Below the pieces are notes generated by a model. That model was not told where the DNA came from, made no database searches, and saw only the letters and a program-made list of their open reading frames with translations. Of a stretch of DNA of 32,500 nt, positions 20,282 to 28,462 are shown one piece after another. The number at the start of each line of letters is the position of its first letter. The stretch's first letter is position 1. The position numbers and the translations under genes are program-made. The stretch is from the NCBI GenBank assembly GCA_947624565.1, contig CANQKX010000015.1, positions 1 to 32,500 of the forward strand. Direction: 5' to 3'. Source of the stretch: an uncultured Bacilli bacterium (GTDB taxonomy: Bacteria > Bacillota_I > Bacilli_A > RF39 > UBA660).

Positions 20282-21538
20282 ATGTTTGCAGTATTCAAAC
20301 AAATCTTTGCACCTAGAAATAAGGATTTAAGAAAAAGAATATTATTTACATTAGGTGCACTAGCAGTTTTTGCTGTTGGGACATCTATTAGAATTCCTAA
20401 TACTAATAGTATTAATGGAAATTTAGGATTTCTAGAATTATTAAACTCAATGGGTGGAGGAGCACTAAAAAGAGGATCAATATTTGGTCTTGGTGTAATG
20501 CCATATATTAGTGCATCAATAGTTATACAATTGTTTTCTATGAATATAATTCCTTATTTTACAGAACTTGCTAAAGAGGGATATTCAGGAAGAAGAAAAT
20601 TAAATACAATAACAAGATATTTAGGAATTGCAATAGCATTTATTCAAGGATTAATATTATCAATTGGTATAGTTGGTAAAAATGCAGAAGCATTTGAATA
20701 TATTAGAGTTTCAATTATATTAACTGCAGGTACAGCATTTCTATTATGGATTGGTGATCAAATTACACAAAAGGGTGTAGGTAATGGTTTATCATTAATA
20801 ATTATGGCTGGTATAGTTGCAGGATTACCATATATGTTTACAGAAGCATTTAGAACATTTATACTTGGTAATGATAATTTATTTATAGGTATTATATCAT
20901 TTGCAGTTTATGTATTAATATACATCGCTATAGTAGTAGGTGTTGTATTTATACAAGAATCAGAAAGAAGAGTACCTATTCAATATTCAAATAAAACATT
21001 AAGTAGTTATGGTGCTAAACAAACATATATACCATTTAGAGTCAATGCAGCAGGTGTAATGCCAGTTATATTTGCATCTACATTAATCGCAATTCCGCAA
21101 ACATTAACAAATTTTATTACAAATGAAGGATATATAAAATTTGTAAATAATTATTTAAATTATAATACAGTTGTAGGATTAATAATATATTTAGTATTAA
21201 TAATATTATTCTCATTTGGGTATACAATACTTGAGTTTAGACCAGAAGATATAGCAACTAATTTACAAAAAAATGGTGGTTATATTCCAGGTATTAGACC
21301 AGGAAAAGAAACAAAAAAATATATTACATCAGTACTTATTAAAATTACAACATTTGGAAGTATATTCTTAGTTGTAATAGCAGCTTTACCAATCGTATTT
21401 GCTAATTATTCAAATATAGATAATGCAAATATTTCACTTGGTGGAACAGGAATACTAATAGTTGTTGGTGTAGCACTTGAAACTTATAAACAAGTAGAAA
21501 GTGTACTTAGTCAAAAAGAATATAAAGGAAGATTTTAA
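20282..21538 (+). CDS. secY: Protein translocase channel SecY
   Basis: A 418-residue polytopic membrane protein with ten hydrophobic segments, slightly short of the usual 430. Recognisable parts are FTLGALAVFAVGTSIRIP (helix 1), GLGVMPYISASIVIQLF (helix 2 and the pore-ring region), GVGNGLSLIIMAGIVAGLP, the cytoplasmic loop ESERRVPIQYSNK with the ribosome/SecA-contact Arg pair, and RPGKETKKYI. SecY with SecE and SecG forms the export channel that carries lipoproteins, sortase and pilin precursors of this window. It starts one base after rplO ends; the stop overlaps the adk start (TAATG). Confidence 0.97.
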   Translation: MFAVFKQIFAPRNKDLRKRILFTLGALAVFAVGTSIRIPNTNSINGNLGFLELLNSMGGGALKRGSIFGLGVMPYISASIVIQLFSMNIIPYFTELAKEGYSGRRKLNTITRYLGIAIAFIQGLILSIGIVGKNAEAFEYIRVSIILTAGTAFLLWIGDQITQKGVGNGLSLIIMAGIVAGLPYMFTEAFRTFILGNDNLFIGIISFAVYVLIYIAIVVGVVFIQESERRVPIQYSNKTLSSYGAKQTYIPFRVNAAGVMPVIFASTLIAIPQTLTNFITNEGYIKFVNNYLNYNTVVGLIIYLVLIILFSFGYTILEFRPEDIATNLQKNGGYIPGIRPGKETKKYITSVLIKITTFGSIFLVVIAALPIVFANYSNIDNANISLGGTGILIVVGVALETYKQVESVLSQKEYKGRF

Positions 21539-22179
21539 TGAGTAATATACTTTTAATCTCAGCACCAGGTGCTGGCAAAGGTATTGCTTCTGAATATTTA
21601 GAAGAAAAATATAATTTAGTTCATATGTCTATTGGGAATCTTCTTAGAGAAGAATCGGTTAATAATAGTTTATTAAAAGAAGAGTTAGATAAAGGTAATT
21701 TTGTAGATAATAATATCGTATATAAATTATTTGATGATTTCTTAACAAATAATGGTGATAGTAATTTTATTTTTGAAGGATTCCCAAGATTAATTGAACA
21801 GATAAAGCCGTTTGAATCTATTTTAGAAAAACATAACATAATCTTAGATAAAGTAATATTTATAAATATTGATAAGCAGGTAGCATTAAAAAGAATTACA
21901 GGTAGAATGTTATGTAGTAATTGTGATAGTGTCTATAATAAGTATTTTGATGATATAAAAAATTTAAAATGTAAAAAATGTAATAGTCGTTTATATAAAA
22001 GAACTGATGATAATAAAGAAACATATGAAAATAGATATAAAAGTTTTGAAGAAAGAACATTACCTATTTTGGAATATTTTAAAGATAATTTTTCAAACTT
22101 TATTGAAATTTCAAATAATGGTACTATAGAAGAATTTTATAATAAATTAGATTTTGTTATGAAAGATGATAATAAATAG
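21538..22179 (+). CDS. adk: Adenylate kinase, zinc-lid type, with several non-canonical motif residues
   Basis: A 213-residue protein of normal long-form length. It keeps the P-loop core APGAGKG (9-15), LID domain with four Cys (C126, C129, C145, C148) typical of zinc-binding Gram-positive enzymes, the LID arginines in RITGRML, the RTDD, and the late NRYKSFEERT. However the usual GKGT is GKGI (Ile16), the AMP-site STGD is SIGN (31-34), and DGFPR is EGFPR (80-84). These positions bind AMP or magnesium in known enzymes, so activity may be altered, or the changes may be tolerated. In the canonical slot secY-adk-(map)-infA; map is missing. Start overlaps secY. Confidence 0.9.
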   Translation: MSNILLISAPGAGKGIASEYLEEKYNLVHMSIGNLLREESVNNSLLKEELDKGNFVDNNIVYKLFDDFLTNNGDSNFIFEGFPRLIEQIKPFESILEKHNIILDKVIFINIDKQVALKRITGRMLCSNCDSVYNKYFDDIKNLKCKKCNSRLYKRTDDNKETYENRYKSFEERTLPILEYFKDNFSNFIEISNNGTIEEFYNKLDFVMKDDNK

Positions 22180-22192
22180 GAGATGATTAAAA

Positions 22193-22411
22193 ATGGCTAA
22201 AAATGATATGATAGAAGTTGAAGGTAAGGTAATAGATGTATTACCAGGTGGTAAATTCAAAGTACAACTTGAAAATGGACACATTGTAGAAGCTCATGTT
22301 TCTGGTAAAATACGAATGAACAATATTCGCATCTTACCAGGTGATACAGTGGTCATGGAATTATCACCAGCAGATATAACACATGGGCGTATAGTATGGA
22401 ATAAAAGATAA
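22193..22411 (+). CDS. infA: Translation initiation factor IF-1
   Basis: A 72-residue OB-fold protein, exactly typical. [20 protein letters not shown], the [20 protein letters not shown] block, and [22 protein letters not shown] (split) are diagnostic. IF-1 occupies the A site during initiation. Ribosome binding site AGGAGATGA. It directly follows adk, with rpmJ after it. Confidence 0.98.
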
Positions 22412-24721: not shown

Positions 24722-24752
24722 TAATAAAGAATAGAATAGGAAGGTGTTGGCA

Positions 24753-25838
24753 ATGGAATCAATGGATGAAATAATTGATTTAGACGAACTTCAGGAAGGT
24801 ACTATTGATGAAACCTTAAAAGAATTTATATCAAAAGATGAAGATGTAGCTGAATTATTAAAGAAAAAATTAGATGAATTAAGTTTAGAAGAAGAAAAAT
24901 TATCTAATAAAGAAGATGAAGTAAAAAAATTAGAAGAATCAAATAGAGAAAAAATTAGTTCTAATGCATCTGCTGATGAGTTAATTGAAATTGCTGGCAA
25001 ATTAAAAGATGCAGAAAAAGAACTACAAGAAATAACAGAAAATATTAAAACTTTAGAAACAGAAAAAGAAGAATTAATAAATACTAAAAAAGATATTGAA
25101 AAATCTAAGCAAGAATATATAAAAACATTAGAATCTACTAATTCTAATTATGAAGAACAATTAAAAAGAATATCAGAAGCAATTGAAGTTTGTTCAAATC
25201 CTGCGTTAAAACAAGTTTTAAATGATGTAAAACAGGAAAAAGAAAAAGAATTAACAAGTTTACAAGAAAAAAGAAATGATCAACTTAAAGTTGTTTTGAA
25301 TGAATATGATAATTCTGAAGAAAATAATGAAGATTCTAAAATTATGGTAAGTCAACAAGATGATTCAAAAGAGTCTAATGAAAATGTAATTTTACCAACT
25401 GTTGAATCTTACGAAGAGCCTGAAAAAAATGATATTCCGTTAACAAATAATGTAGTTTTACCAACTATTGAATCTGATGAAGTAAATATTGAATCACCAA
25501 AAGAAGAAGTAGTTTTGGATAATGAAAATATAGATAATAATGAAAATAATATAGAAGAAAAAAATGAATCTTCTGTAATTGATATAGATTCAATTTTATC
25601 TAAATTAGAATCAGAAAATAAAGATATTAATTTTAATTCAGATTTAAATGTTATTAATACTGATGATTTAGTTGTACCTGATGTAAATATATCAGATTTA
25701 AATAATGAATCTAAAGTAAAAATTATTTTTGAAAAAAATGTACCAACTGATGTAGTAAAAGATATATATTCTTCAAGTAAAGTTATGCCAGTTATATATG
25801 ATTTTTTAGATAATAAAGATTCAAAGGAGGCATATTAG
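24753..25838 (+). CDS. Long coiled-coil cytoplasmic protein with an acidic disordered tail, unknown function
   Basis: A 361-residue protein. Residues 1-25 are acidic, about 30-185 are coiled coil (ELLKKKLDELSLEEEKL, then EKELQEITENIKTLETEKEEL), and 186-290 are disordered and acidic. A short repeat occurs twice: NVILPTVES (211-219) and NVVLPTIES (233-241), also nearly identical as DNA. The end (about 320-355, SKVKIIFEKNVPTDVVKDIY) looks folded. There is no signal peptide or membrane helix. The ATG at 24753 has GGAAGGTG 6 bases upstream; GTG and TTG codons just before it are inside or next to that site. A strong promoter drives it, so it is probably abundant. No family recognised; a structural or scaffold role is inference. 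Confidence 0.65.
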   Translation: MESMDEIIDLDELQEGTIDETLKEFISKDEDVAELLKKKLDELSLEEEKLSNKEDEVKKLEESNREKISSNASADELIEIAGKLKDAEKELQEITENIKTLETEKEELINTKKDIEKSKQEYIKTLESTNSNYEEQLKRISEAIEVCSNPALKQVLNDVKQEKEKELTSLQEKRNDQLKVVLNEYDNSEENNEDSKIMVSQQDDSKESNENVILPTVESYEEPEKNDIPLTNNVVLPTIESDEVNIESPKEEVVLDNENIDNNENNIEEKNESSVIDIDSILSKLESENKDINFNSDLNVINTDDLVVPDVNISDLNNESKVKIIFEKNVPTDVVKDIYSSSKVMPVIYDFLDNKDSKEAY

Positions 25839-25842
25839 AATA

Positions 25843-26088
25843 ATGGATAAAAAAATATTAAAATTAGAAAATAATAAAGAATATTTTGTAATTGGAGAAA
25901 CCATTCAAAATGATATAAACTATTTACTTATAATGAATGTTGATAGTGAATATGATGTTAAAATAGTTAAGAAATTTTCAGTTGATAACGAAGATTATAT
26001 AATCGATTTAGAAGATAAACAACTAGTTGATAGTTTAAAAGATACATTTAAGAAAACAATTGATGAAGAAAAAAATCAATTTGCATAA
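25843..26088 (+). CDS. Small acidic protein, possibly DUF1292-like
   Basis: An 81-residue acidic protein with the pattern of a small beta-barrel: LKLENNKEYFVIGETIQNDI, YLLIMNVDSEYDVKIVKKFS, then DNEDYIIDLEDKQLVDSLKDTF as an acidic helix. This layout (strand, Tyr/Leu-rich strand, acidic end) resembles DUF1292 proteins, but I cannot confirm it. It is co-transcribed with the upstream coiled-coil gene: the two are 4 bases apart, and AAAGGAGG lies inside the upstream gene 12 bases before the ATG. The terminator follows 9 bases after the stop. A joint role is inferred from linkage. Confidence 0.55.
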   Translation: MDKKILKLENNKEYFVIGETIQNDINYLLIMNVDSEYDVKIVKKFSVDNEDYIIDLEDKQLVDSLKDTFKKTIDEEKNQFA

Positions 26089-26097
26089 AAAAATAAG

Positions 26098-26127
26098 GAA
26101 AATTATTAATATTAATTTTCTTTTTTT
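26098..26127 (+). terminator. Terminator after the coiled-coil operon
   Basis: GAAAATTA (26098-26105) pairs with TAATTTTC (26113-26120) across a 7-base loop, followed by seven T. It separates the two-gene unit from the ABC genes. Confidence 0.7.
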
Positions 26128-26138
26128 AATTTTTTTTG

Positions 26139-26144
26139 TATAAT
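26139..26144 (+). promoter_or_regulatory. -10 element of the ABC/truA operon
   Basis: TATAAT lies about 38 bases before the ABC start codon, directly after the preceding terminator. TG precedes it without the extra base; no -35 is evident in the T-rich region. Confidence 0.5.
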
Positions 26145-26176
26145 AATAACTAAATAATTTATATGGAAGTGTTATG

Positions 26177-26959
26177 ATGAATTATATATCTATTAAAAAT
26201 TTGAATTTTAGTTATGGTAAAAGAAAAATATTTAATAATATAAATATTGATATTAAAAAAGGTAGTTTTGTAGCAGTGACATCTCCAAATTCTTCTGGTA
26301 AAACTACATTACTTAAGATAATGTATGCTAGTATAGATACATGTGCAGACATATTAATTGAAAATAAACCATTAACTAAAAAACGAATAGAAGAGTATAA
26401 AAATGACATAACATTATTTGTCCCATATATAAGATTTTACTCAAGTACTATATTAGATGAATTATTGATTTCAGCAAAAAAAGAAAATATTAATGATATA
26501 GAAAAATTATTAAAGGAATTTAATTTATATAAATATATAAATGAATCTCCATTAAAATTAAGTTATATTGATTGTCAAAAATTAAATTTAATAAAAGCTA
26601 TATTAAATAATTCAAAATTATTATTAATAGATGATATATTTTCATATTTTGATAAATATTCAAAAATAGAATTTATTGGATTCTTAAAAAAATACCAAAT
26701 TGATATGAATATGACAATAGTATATGCAACATGCAATCTAGATGATATTATTTTTTGTGATAAAGTAATAATGATTAATAAAGGTGAATTATTATATGAT
26801 GGTTCTGTTGATAAAATTTATTCAGATGAAAAAATTTTAAAAGAATCAAAAATTAACATACCATTGTTAAATCAATTAATAGATAAATTAAAATTATATG
26901 ATCTTATTAATAATGATACTTGTACAATAGATGAAGTGGTGGATGAAATATGCAGATAA
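26177..26959 (+). CDS. Degenerate ABC ATPase in the EcfA1 position
   Basis: A 260-residue ABC ATPase-like protein, placed where ecfA1 lies in Bacilli (rplQ-ecfA1-ecfA2-ecfT-truA). The fold is clear: start ISIKNLNFSYGKRKIFNNIN, Walker A S36-P-N-S-S-G-K-T-T44 with the lysine kept but the first Gly replaced by Ser. The Q-loop Gln is not seen (LFVPYIRF), the signature is LSYIDCQ instead of LSGGQ, Walker B is LLLIDD (Asp153 where Glu is usual), and the H-loop His is Cys186 in YATCNLDD. The C-terminal IPLLNQLIDKLK extension is typical of EcfA. It may bind ATP but is likely impaired in hydrolysis. Start 26177 is preferred over 26174 for spacing. Overlaps the next gene by 10 bases. Confidence 0.75.
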   Translation: MNYISIKNLNFSYGKRKIFNNINIDIKKGSFVAVTSPNSSGKTTLLKIMYASIDTCADILIENKPLTKKRIEEYKNDITLFVPYIRFYSSTILDELLISAKKENINDIEKLLKEFNLYKYINESPLKLSYIDCQKLNLIKAILNNSKLLLIDDIFSYFDKYSKIEFIGFLKKYQIDMNMTIVYATCNLDDIIFCDKVIMINKGELLYDGSVDKIYSDEKILKESKINIPLLNQLIDKLKLYDLINNDTCTIDEVVDEICR

Positions 26960-27717
26960 GCTTAAAAAATGTTTCTTATAAAACAATAAAAAATATAAAT
27001 CTTGATATTGAAGATAATAAAATAACTGGTATAATTTCTAATAGTATTGATGAATTAAATGATTTAAATGAATTAATCTATGAAAATAAGAAAGAAACAG
27101 GAGTTATAAAATACGCTTTTAAGTATGATAAAAGAAAAATAGGTTTAGTTTCAATTAAACAATGTATTAATATGATTAGTGGCAATTTAAAAGAATTTTT
27201 TTTACTAAAAGCAAAGGAGTTAAATTTTAATATTGATAATTTAGATGAAGTATTAAAAAATGTTGGACTTTCTAGTAGTATTTTAAAACTTGATTTGTCT
27301 GAATTAAGTACAAGTGAAAAAATAAAAATTTTATTTTCAATTACATTATTATGTAATACGGATATTATACTTCTTGATAATATTTTTTCCCAATTAGATT
27401 ATAAATCTAAAGACAAAATTTTTAAAATATTAACTAGATTAAAATTTGAACATAAAACGATATTAATATCATCTCTTGATATTGATCTTGTTTATGAACT
27501 TATAGATAATATCGTTATAATAGATAATAAAAATGTACTAATTAGTTCAGAAAAATATTCAGCATTTAATGATAAAAAAATTTCTAGTAATAAGTTAATA
27601 AAAAAACCATTAATAGTTGAAATTACTAATAAAATATATGAAAAAAACAATATAAAGTTGGGTAAAAATGATAATATAAATGAATTAATAAAAGCAATAT
27701 ATAGAGAAATAAGGTGA
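26950..27717 (+). CDS. Highly degenerate ABC ATPase-like protein in the EcfA2 position
   Basis: A 255-residue protein. The ABC framework is recognisable: ISLKNVSYKTIKNINLDIEDNKITGIIS at the front, LSELSTSEKIKILFSITLL in place of the signature helix, IILLDNIFSQLD in place of Walker B plus D-loop, and KTILISSLDIDLVYELIDNIVII. But Walker A is gone (SNSIDELND where GxxGxGKST is expected), the catalytic Glu is Asn144, and the H-loop His is Leu176. ATP hydrolysis by this subunit is not expected. The frame is uninterrupted with normal codon use, so it is not a fresh pseudogene. It overlaps the upstream ABC gene by 10 bases; truA starts 5 bases after its TGA stop, leaving no room for ecfT. Confidence 0.7.
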   Translation: MQISLKNVSYKTIKNINLDIEDNKITGIISNSIDELNDLNELIYENKKETGVIKYAFKYDKRKIGLVSIKQCINMISGNLKEFFLLKAKELNFNIDNLDEVLKNVGLSSSILKLDLSELSTSEKIKILFSITLLCNTDIILLDNIFSQLDYKSKDKIFKILTRLKFEHKTILISSLDIDLVYELIDNIVIIDNKNVLISSEKYSAFNDKKISSNKLIKKPLIVEITNKIYEKNNIKLGKNDNINELIKAIYREIR

Positions 27718-27721
27718 GTAT

Positions 27722-28462
27722 ATGACTAGATATTTAATAAATTTTTCTTATGATGGATCAAATTATAATGGTTATCAGAAACAAAAAGGATTAAATACTA
27801 TTCAAGGTAAAATTGAAGATGCACTTAAATATATAAATAATAAAGATACAAAATTTTCAGCATCAGGAAGAACTGATGCTTTTGTTCATGCTAATAATCA
27901 ATTTGGTCATGTCGATATTGATGTAAATATAACTGAGAATAAGTTAAAAAGGGCATTAAATAGTTTACTTCCTGATGATATATATGTTAAAAGTGCGAAA
28001 AAGGTAAATGATGATTTTCATTGTAGATATATGGTAAAAGAAAAACAATACATTTATATAATTAATATGGGAGAATTTAATCCTATTGAAAGAAAATATG
28101 TATATCAATTTTGTAATAAATTAAATTTATATAAAATGAAAAAAGCATTAAAATATATAAAAGGTACTCATGATTTTGAAAAATTTTCATCAAATGAACA
28201 TAAAGAAAAAAATACAGTTAGAAGTATTTATACTGCAAAAATTAAAAAAAGAAAGAATTATTTAATTTTTTCTTTTTCCGGTAATGGTTTTTTAAAATAT
28301 ATGGTTAGAATAATAGTAGGAGTATTAATTCAAATAGGTTCAAATAAGATGAATCCGTCAGATATTAAGCAGATATTTAGTGGAGATTATAAATTTAAAT
28401 ATAAAAAAATAGCTCCACCAGAAGGTTTATATTTAAATAATGTAAAATACAAAAAAATATAG
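27722..28462 (+). CDS. truA: tRNA pseudouridine(38-40) synthase
   Basis: A 246-residue TruA of normal length. It begins YLINFSYDGSNYNGYQKQ, has TIQGKIEDAL, the catalytic Asp52 in SGRTDAFVHA, FHCRYMVKEKQYIYII near 100, and the C-terminal GNGFLKYMVRIIVGVLIQIG. The enzyme makes pseudouridine at positions 38-40 of the tRNA anticodon arm. The ribosome binding site AAGGTGAG overlaps the end of the preceding ABC gene, supporting co-transcription. In many Bacilli truA is followed by rplM-rpsI; here a leftward gene follows. Confidence 0.95.
   Translation: MTRYLINFSYDGSNYNGYQKQKGLNTIQGKIEDALKYINNKDTKFSASGRTDAFVHANNQFGHVDIDVNITENKLKRALNSLLPDDIYVKSAKKVNDDFHCRYMVKEKQYIYIINMGEFNPIERKYVYQFCNKLNLYKMKKALKYIKGTHDFEKFSSNEHKEKNTVRSIYTAKIKKRKNYLIFSFSGNGFLKYMVRIIVGVLIQIGSNKMNPSDIKQIFSGDYKFKYKKIAPPEGLYLNNVKYKKI

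Follow-up and report, generated by a model that had tools for sequence, protein, structure and literature searches.

Retention of a degenerate EcfA1-EcfA2 ATPase pair after repeated loss of the importer in a family of small-genome bacteria

In a bacterial family with small genomes, whose members come mostly from the gut, an ECF vitamin importer has been lost repeatedly while its two ATPases, termed A1 and A2 herein, have been kept. The pair probably can no longer burn ATP, is still under purifying selection, and has probably taken on a different job. The reading that we favor, and judge reasonably probable, is that of a repurposed, nontransporting, hydrolysis-dead heterodimer with a scaffold or an ATP-liganded/regulatory role, for which the C-terminal half would be the working surface. 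As far as we know, ECF ATPases have been studied only as transporter motors, and a literature search whose scope was set outside subscription journals found no description of EcfA pairs retained without EcfT.

The window (we use this term for the whole stretch of 32,500 nucleotides that was analyzed) carries the pair between rplQ and truA. The features of the locus are as follows:

26098..26127, + strand: terminator-like A+T-rich hairpin with a T tract, 3' of an 81-amino-acid ORF, seen in the sequence; weak stem of A and T only
26137..26144, + strand: TGTATAAT, probably an extended -10 promoter element serving the A1-A2-truA unit, proposed from conservation only
26177..26959, + strand: A1, EcfA1-derived ABC protein of 260 amino acids; TIGR04520 match of 118 bits (cut-off, 315); AF2 pLDDT of 90.4; Foldseek matches to EcfA and CbiO
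26950..27717, + strand: A2, EcfA2-derived ABC protein of 255 amino acids; TIGR04521 match of 66 bits (cut-off, 330); AF2 pLDDT of 95.2; top Foldseek match EcfA2
27722..28462, + strand: truA, the next gene after A2; ecfT, placed between A2 and truA in relatives, is missing here

The A1 ORF starts with an ATG at position 26174 (261 amino acids) or at position 26177, and the starts of the orthologs and the Shine-Dalgarno spacing favor the latter. An earlier reading made from the sequence only had described two intact frames at these coordinates with a 10-base overlap (26950 to 26959) and normal codon use, and it was right in each of these points, the GC3 values of A1 (0.092) and A2 (0.086) being close to that of truA (0.085). 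Frames that are open by chance are ruled out, since shuffles preserving the codon-position composition contained 15 to 20 stops per gene and none of 2,000 stayed open.

A hairpin element like that at 26098..26127, which is absent from the output of the terminator scanner, also precedes A1 in most members of the genus. Directly 5' of A1, TGTATAAT is identical or nearly identical in G006, G001, G002, and G004 and has one base changed in G007 and G068; together, the hairpin with its T tract and the conserved box suggest that A1-A2-truA might form a separate transcription unit. Another terminator-like hairpin, with an 8-bp stem and a T tract, lies within the truA coding region (window positions 27859 to 27880). 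Upstream of the pair, the window encodes a fast-evolving coiled-coil protein (24744 to 25838; 284 to 364 amino acids in relatives, no family match) and a protein of 81 amino acids with a subthreshold DUF1292 match (25843 to 26088). These two genes replace the SDR gene found 5' of A1 in many relatives and co-occur only in the window's genus and in G068. Because of this limited occurrence, and because the terminator/promoter-like element appears to separate them from A1, they were ruled out as partners of A1-A2 that could explain the family-wide pattern. Elsewhere in the window, the methionine aminopeptidase gene is missing from the adk-infA slot (21538 to 22400), where several congeners have it, and the sole copy detected in the genome is on another contig (G000:C4:50439-51125). 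The P-loop region of adenylate kinase (SAPGAGKGI; gene at 21538 to 22179) varies at normally fixed positions among congeners, including G004, G006, and G002.

A1 and A2 are EcfA1 and EcfA2 by descent, because NCBIfam matches, predicted folds, and a shared locus all lead to this assignment. The top NCBIfam matches were ECF_ATPase_1 for A1 and ECF_ATPase_2 for A2, both well under the cut-offs (118 versus 315 bits and 66 versus 330 bits, respectively). Foldseek searches with the AF2 models returned EcfA and CbiO chains as the closest structures, near full length, with TM scores of 0.86 to 0.88 to EcfA chains. The same slot in other genera of the family contains A1-A2-EcfT-truA, often preceded by rplQ and an SDR gene, and it is indeed the conserved ecfA1-ecfA2 slot that had been assumed.

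To survey the family, truA was sought in 136 genomes, nearly one per genus, and found in 128. From this survey and from earlier loci, 126 regions upstream of truA were assembled, a set that would miss pairs located away from truA. The pair was present in 115 of the 126, in 55 cases with an EcfT-like ORF between A2 and truA and in 60 without; the window's own genus supplies 7 of these 60. The 10-nt overlap of A1 and A2 was kept in 53 of the 55 EcfT-bearing and 54 of the 60 EcfT-less loci. A tree of TruA (a single gene, 107 rows) requires 15 switches in the EcfT state, of which 7 or more fall on well-supported branches. The local picture that had been drawn from the window holds for its genus, where the pair is real, and was too narrow, the same pattern being found across dozens of genera. 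Two observations count against our favored reading: about 8 of the 126 family genomes have no pair at truA, and in one genus A2 was undetectable in 4 of 10 genomes, so that the pair is dispensable to some relatives.

The motifs of the window's pair are located as follows:

26282..26305, + strand: remnant of the A1 Walker A, SPNSSGKT, which retains Lys and Thr and has lost two Gly; GKT invariant in all seven genus members
26558..26572, + strand: A1 signature slot, with LSYID in place of LSGGQ; the consensus in the genus is L[SN]Y
26618..26635, + strand: A1 Walker B LLLIDD; Asp stands at the position of the catalytic Glu, where the six other species have Asn
26732..26734, + strand: A1 H-loop (ATCN), Cys instead of His; Asn or Thr in other genus members
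26786..26956, + strand: A1 C-terminal domain, the best-conserved part of EcfT-less A1 (ratio of about 0.9 to 1.0 versus EcfT-bearing relatives)
27037..27060, + strand: A2 Walker A slot, reading SNSIDELN, without a P-loop motif; three congeners retain Walker A
27304..27318, + strand: A2 signature LSTSE; Ser and Glu invariant within the genus
27385..27402, + strand: Walker B region of A2, ILLDNI, with Asn at the Glu position (motif reading)
27475..27477, + strand: A2 H-loop position (SSLD), Leu instead of His (motif reading)
27544..27714, + strand: A2 C-terminal domain, ending LGKNDNINELIKAIYREIR; near-invariant in the genus and conserved in EcfT-less relatives

Every residue state reported in the sequence-only reading was found again, that is, the kept Walker A Lys, Glu to Asp, His to Cys, and missing LSGGQ of A1 and the missing Walker A, Glu to Asn, and His to Leu of A2; the Walker B Asp is also kept in the window's A1. 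Within the genus, the A2 Walker A is lost in G000, G007, G006, and G001 and is still GxxGxGKTD in G003, G002, and G004, and both Glu and both His residues are lost in all seven members.

Among the 60 EcfT-less pairs of the family, the catalytic Glu of A1 was kept in 3 (Asp in 32 and Asn in 21) and its H-loop His in 1; the corresponding numbers for A2 were 15 and 4. Of the other motifs, 52 pairs have kept the A1 Walker A, 55 the Walker B Asp of A1, and 57 the Ser/Thr of the A2 signature. Site 1, which consists of A1 Walker A/B and the A2 signature, was kept in 50 pairs, the opposite site in 9, and a complete catalytic set in 1; judged by these residues, site 1 could in principle bind ATP in 50 of the 60. 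In the EcfT-bearing relatives, any complete catalytic set was present in 32 of 55. This partial loss in the presence of EcfT counts against our favored reading, and because of it catalysis seems to have been failing already before EcfT was lost. Tests on independent pairs for an association of EcfT loss with motif loss were not significant and, with 7 pairs, underpowered.

The most extreme forms were found in the genus of G014, in which A1 has 149 amino acids and no P-loop, A2 has 181 to 189 amino acids, and the pair is present in 6 of 10 species. By profile comparison and NCBIfam, both proteins are C-terminal halves of EcfA, the A2 assignment being weak in NCBIfam and clear in the profile comparison. 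For the three closest species pairs, one of these comparisons being unsaturated, omega values were 0.024 to 0.067 for A1, 0.023 to 0.059 for A2, and 0.019 to 0.039 for truA. Two close species (dS of 0.16 to 0.31) gave 0.067, 0.059, and 0.039, respectively, and the omega of A1 was 0.024 at a dS of 0.75. Since an A1 of this type has no recognizable ATP site and is still under selection, we argue that the retained function is structural. Both a structural and a nucleotide-sensing role had been considered for the window's pair; "structural" fits better, because the most reduced relatives delete the A1 P-loop yet stay strongly selected.

We propose that A1 and A2 descend from the EcfA1/EcfA2 motor that once drove a group II ECF vitamin transporter and have outlived this transporter, with EcfT gone. 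With Glu and His missing from each subunit, the pair should be unable to hydrolyze ATP; in a bona fide ECF module, a single Glu-to-Gln exchange in either ATPase abolishes ATPase activity and transport, with no ATPase above background (PMC10368641). The double Glu-to-Gln mutant is ATP bound and closed (PMC10368641). In the present pair, the observed A1 Walker A/B residues, together with the Ser of the A2 signature opposite them, may bind an ATP that acts as a staple, and the other composite site would be dead. Such a one-ATP staple might be possible in most lineages, and the most reduced lineages would be nucleotide-free. The purifying selection that was measured would then maintain the pair as a scaffold or regulatory heterodimer.

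A different reading of the same residues is that the site formed by A1 and the A2 signature, although Glu and His are lost, still turns over ATP at a slow rate and powers a new partner, either soluble or in the membrane, which would make the pair a motor with a new load and not a scaffold. This would account for the joint presence of the A1 Walker A Lys, the Walker B Asp, and the A2 signature Ser in 50 of the 60 EcfT-less pairs and for Asp, a conservative change, as the most frequent replacement of the A1 Glu (32 of 60). We regard it as unlikely: His is missing from both subunits in 55 of the 60 pairs, several lineages delete the A1 P-loop (the one tested for selection being strongly constrained), and a true ECF module already shows no ATPase above background when a single Glu is changed to Gln (PMC10368641).

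Pfam searches for EcfT (PF02361) were negative in all 8 genus genomes and positive in each of the 23 genomes that represented other families of the class. A family-specific profile, built from 24 EcfT proteins of the family, very diverged ones included, had no match in 21 EcfT-less genomes and detected EcfT in 5 of 5 controls, and a relocated or hidden EcfT was ruled out on this basis. The earlier suggestion that the pair is not a transporter motor is borne out, because EcfT is absent genome-wide. S components, for which two families (PF12822 and PF07155) were searched, were not found in the genus genomes searched; these families are also rare in EcfT-bearing relatives. Family genomes with a canonical EcfT (e.g., G030, G033, G061, and G141) likewise have no PF12822 or PF07155 S component, and their modules either use other or diverged S families or already have another role. 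In several relatives, EcfT-like ORFs have shrunk to 194 to 219 amino acids, with neither Pfam recognizability nor the SRG-type coupling motif, and are still located between A2 and truA (L046:3753-4334, L049:3478-4125, L075:2925-3548, L099:3837-4493, and L115:3837-4493). It seems that EcfT decays alongside the ATPases and only then disappears.

The EcfA C-terminal domain helps to hold the dimer together in EcfA structures. In the EcfT-less pairs, its conservation was 0.86 to 0.98 of the EcfT-bearing level, and that of the region around and after the Q-loop was mostly 0.38 to 0.57. EcfT anchors its coupling helices in grooves of the ATPases (PMC10368641). A relaxed Q-loop region with a kept C-terminal domain is therefore the pattern expected if EcfT binding, but not dimerization, had been released. 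That the pair is still an ECF motor whose T component has diverged beyond recognition is very unlikely in view of these results. The shortened EcfT-like ORFs, already beyond Pfam in some relatives, make a still more extreme form elsewhere conceivable, but the profile that includes diverged forms was empty in the 21 EcfT-less genomes and positive in all 5 controls, the region around and after the Q-loop is where constraint has fallen furthest, no PF12822 or PF07155 S component was found, and the catalytic residues are absent.

Within the window's genus, the pair is at the same place, with intact frames, in 6 of the 7 other genomes, the seventh being 64% complete; that is, all six of the other genomes containing the locus keep it. 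Identities of the orthologs to the window proteins were 45 to 65% for A1 and 41 to 58% for A2. Codon models for G000 versus G007 gave omega values of 0.034 (A1) and 0.020 (A2), point values that are rough because dS is saturated, with 95% upper bounds of ≤0.1 and likelihood ratio statistics against an omega of 1 of 97 and 114, respectively. TruA evolves more slowly than either protein of the pair in this genus, which counts against our favored reading. The sequence-only reading had held the pair to be maintained rather than decaying and had proposed to look for it, with its losses, in related genomes and to determine dN/dS. The intact frames and low omega values across the genus agree with maintenance, neutrality is rejected in favor of purifying selection, and the Glu/His losses recur in 7 of 7 members; together with the absence of EcfT, these conserved losses and low omega values support its repurposed, nonmotor reading. 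A relic of dead transporter ATPases awaiting deletion would also have lost EcfT and, stepwise, its motifs and would be wholly gone from some relatives, as is seen. Such decay into pseudogenes is contradicted by omega values far under 1, with neutrality strongly rejected (the unsaturated comparison included), and by frames intact in 60 genomes of AT-rich lineages in which chance frames break at once, and we give it scarcely any probability. Finally, the 10-nt overlap and tight truA spacing, both near universal, could make the frames a mere translated leader that couples ribosomes into truA irrespective of protein sequence, a reading that is hardly credible with an amino acid sequence so strongly conserved relative to synonymous sites.

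Returning to the repurposed heterodimer, A1 and A2 very probably still pair, given their ancestry and because the predicted ABC fold and the C-terminal domain are retained in each. A1-A2 covariation was enriched at canonical composite-site pairs (P = 0.013, uncorrected for phylogeny), and two of the top covarying pairs, between residues at the A1 C terminus and residue 2 of A2, fall within or next to the stretch in which the two genes overlap. Overall scores were no higher than those of the A1-TruA and A2-TruA controls; covariation was thus set aside as proof of pairing, the composite-site enrichment being only suggestive. It is conceivable, and we offer this tentatively, that EcfA-EcfA' carries a second, transport-independent function on its C-terminal half, which survives the loss of EcfT, of hydrolysis, and even of the P-loop, has come to light on separate occasions in many lineages of this one family, and could be present, so far overlooked, in ordinary ECF modules. 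The family offers a natural series from canonical A1-A2-T to 149-residue remnants without a P-loop, all adjacent to truA and under selection where tested, which shows that some part of the heterodimer is worth retaining even when transport and catalysis are lost. Whether EcfAA' has such a hidden role thereby becomes directly testable in culturable laboratory strains, a plausible path to the more general point of a transport-independent role, and the intermediates are a residue-by-residue record of an ATPase becoming a pseudoenzyme.

CFTR, TAP, and proteins of the TM287/288 type are heterodimeric ABC proteins with one degenerate site, and the asymmetric decay of one composite site is shared with them. 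They keep one competent catalytic site and a membrane domain, whereas in the present pair both sites are incomplete and there is no longer a membrane subunit. The 2EQ ECF mutant (E169Q, E'171Q) likewise has the catalytic Glu exchanged in both of its ATPases, and this engineered form is ATP bound, closed, and hydrolysis dead (PMC10368641). Unlike this mutant, the natural pair is also without the His residues and without EcfT, one of its two binding sites is dead, and its putative ATP binding is deduced from residues. Compared to EcfA1/EcfA2 of group II ECF transporters, the window's pair has no EcfT, no detected S component (PF12822 and PF07155), curated scores far under the cut-off, no LSGGQ, catalytic Glu, or H-loop His in either subunit, and no Walker A in A2; the two have in common their ancestry, the truA-adjacent order of two overlapping genes, the ABC fold with the EcfA C-terminal domain, and the best structural matches.
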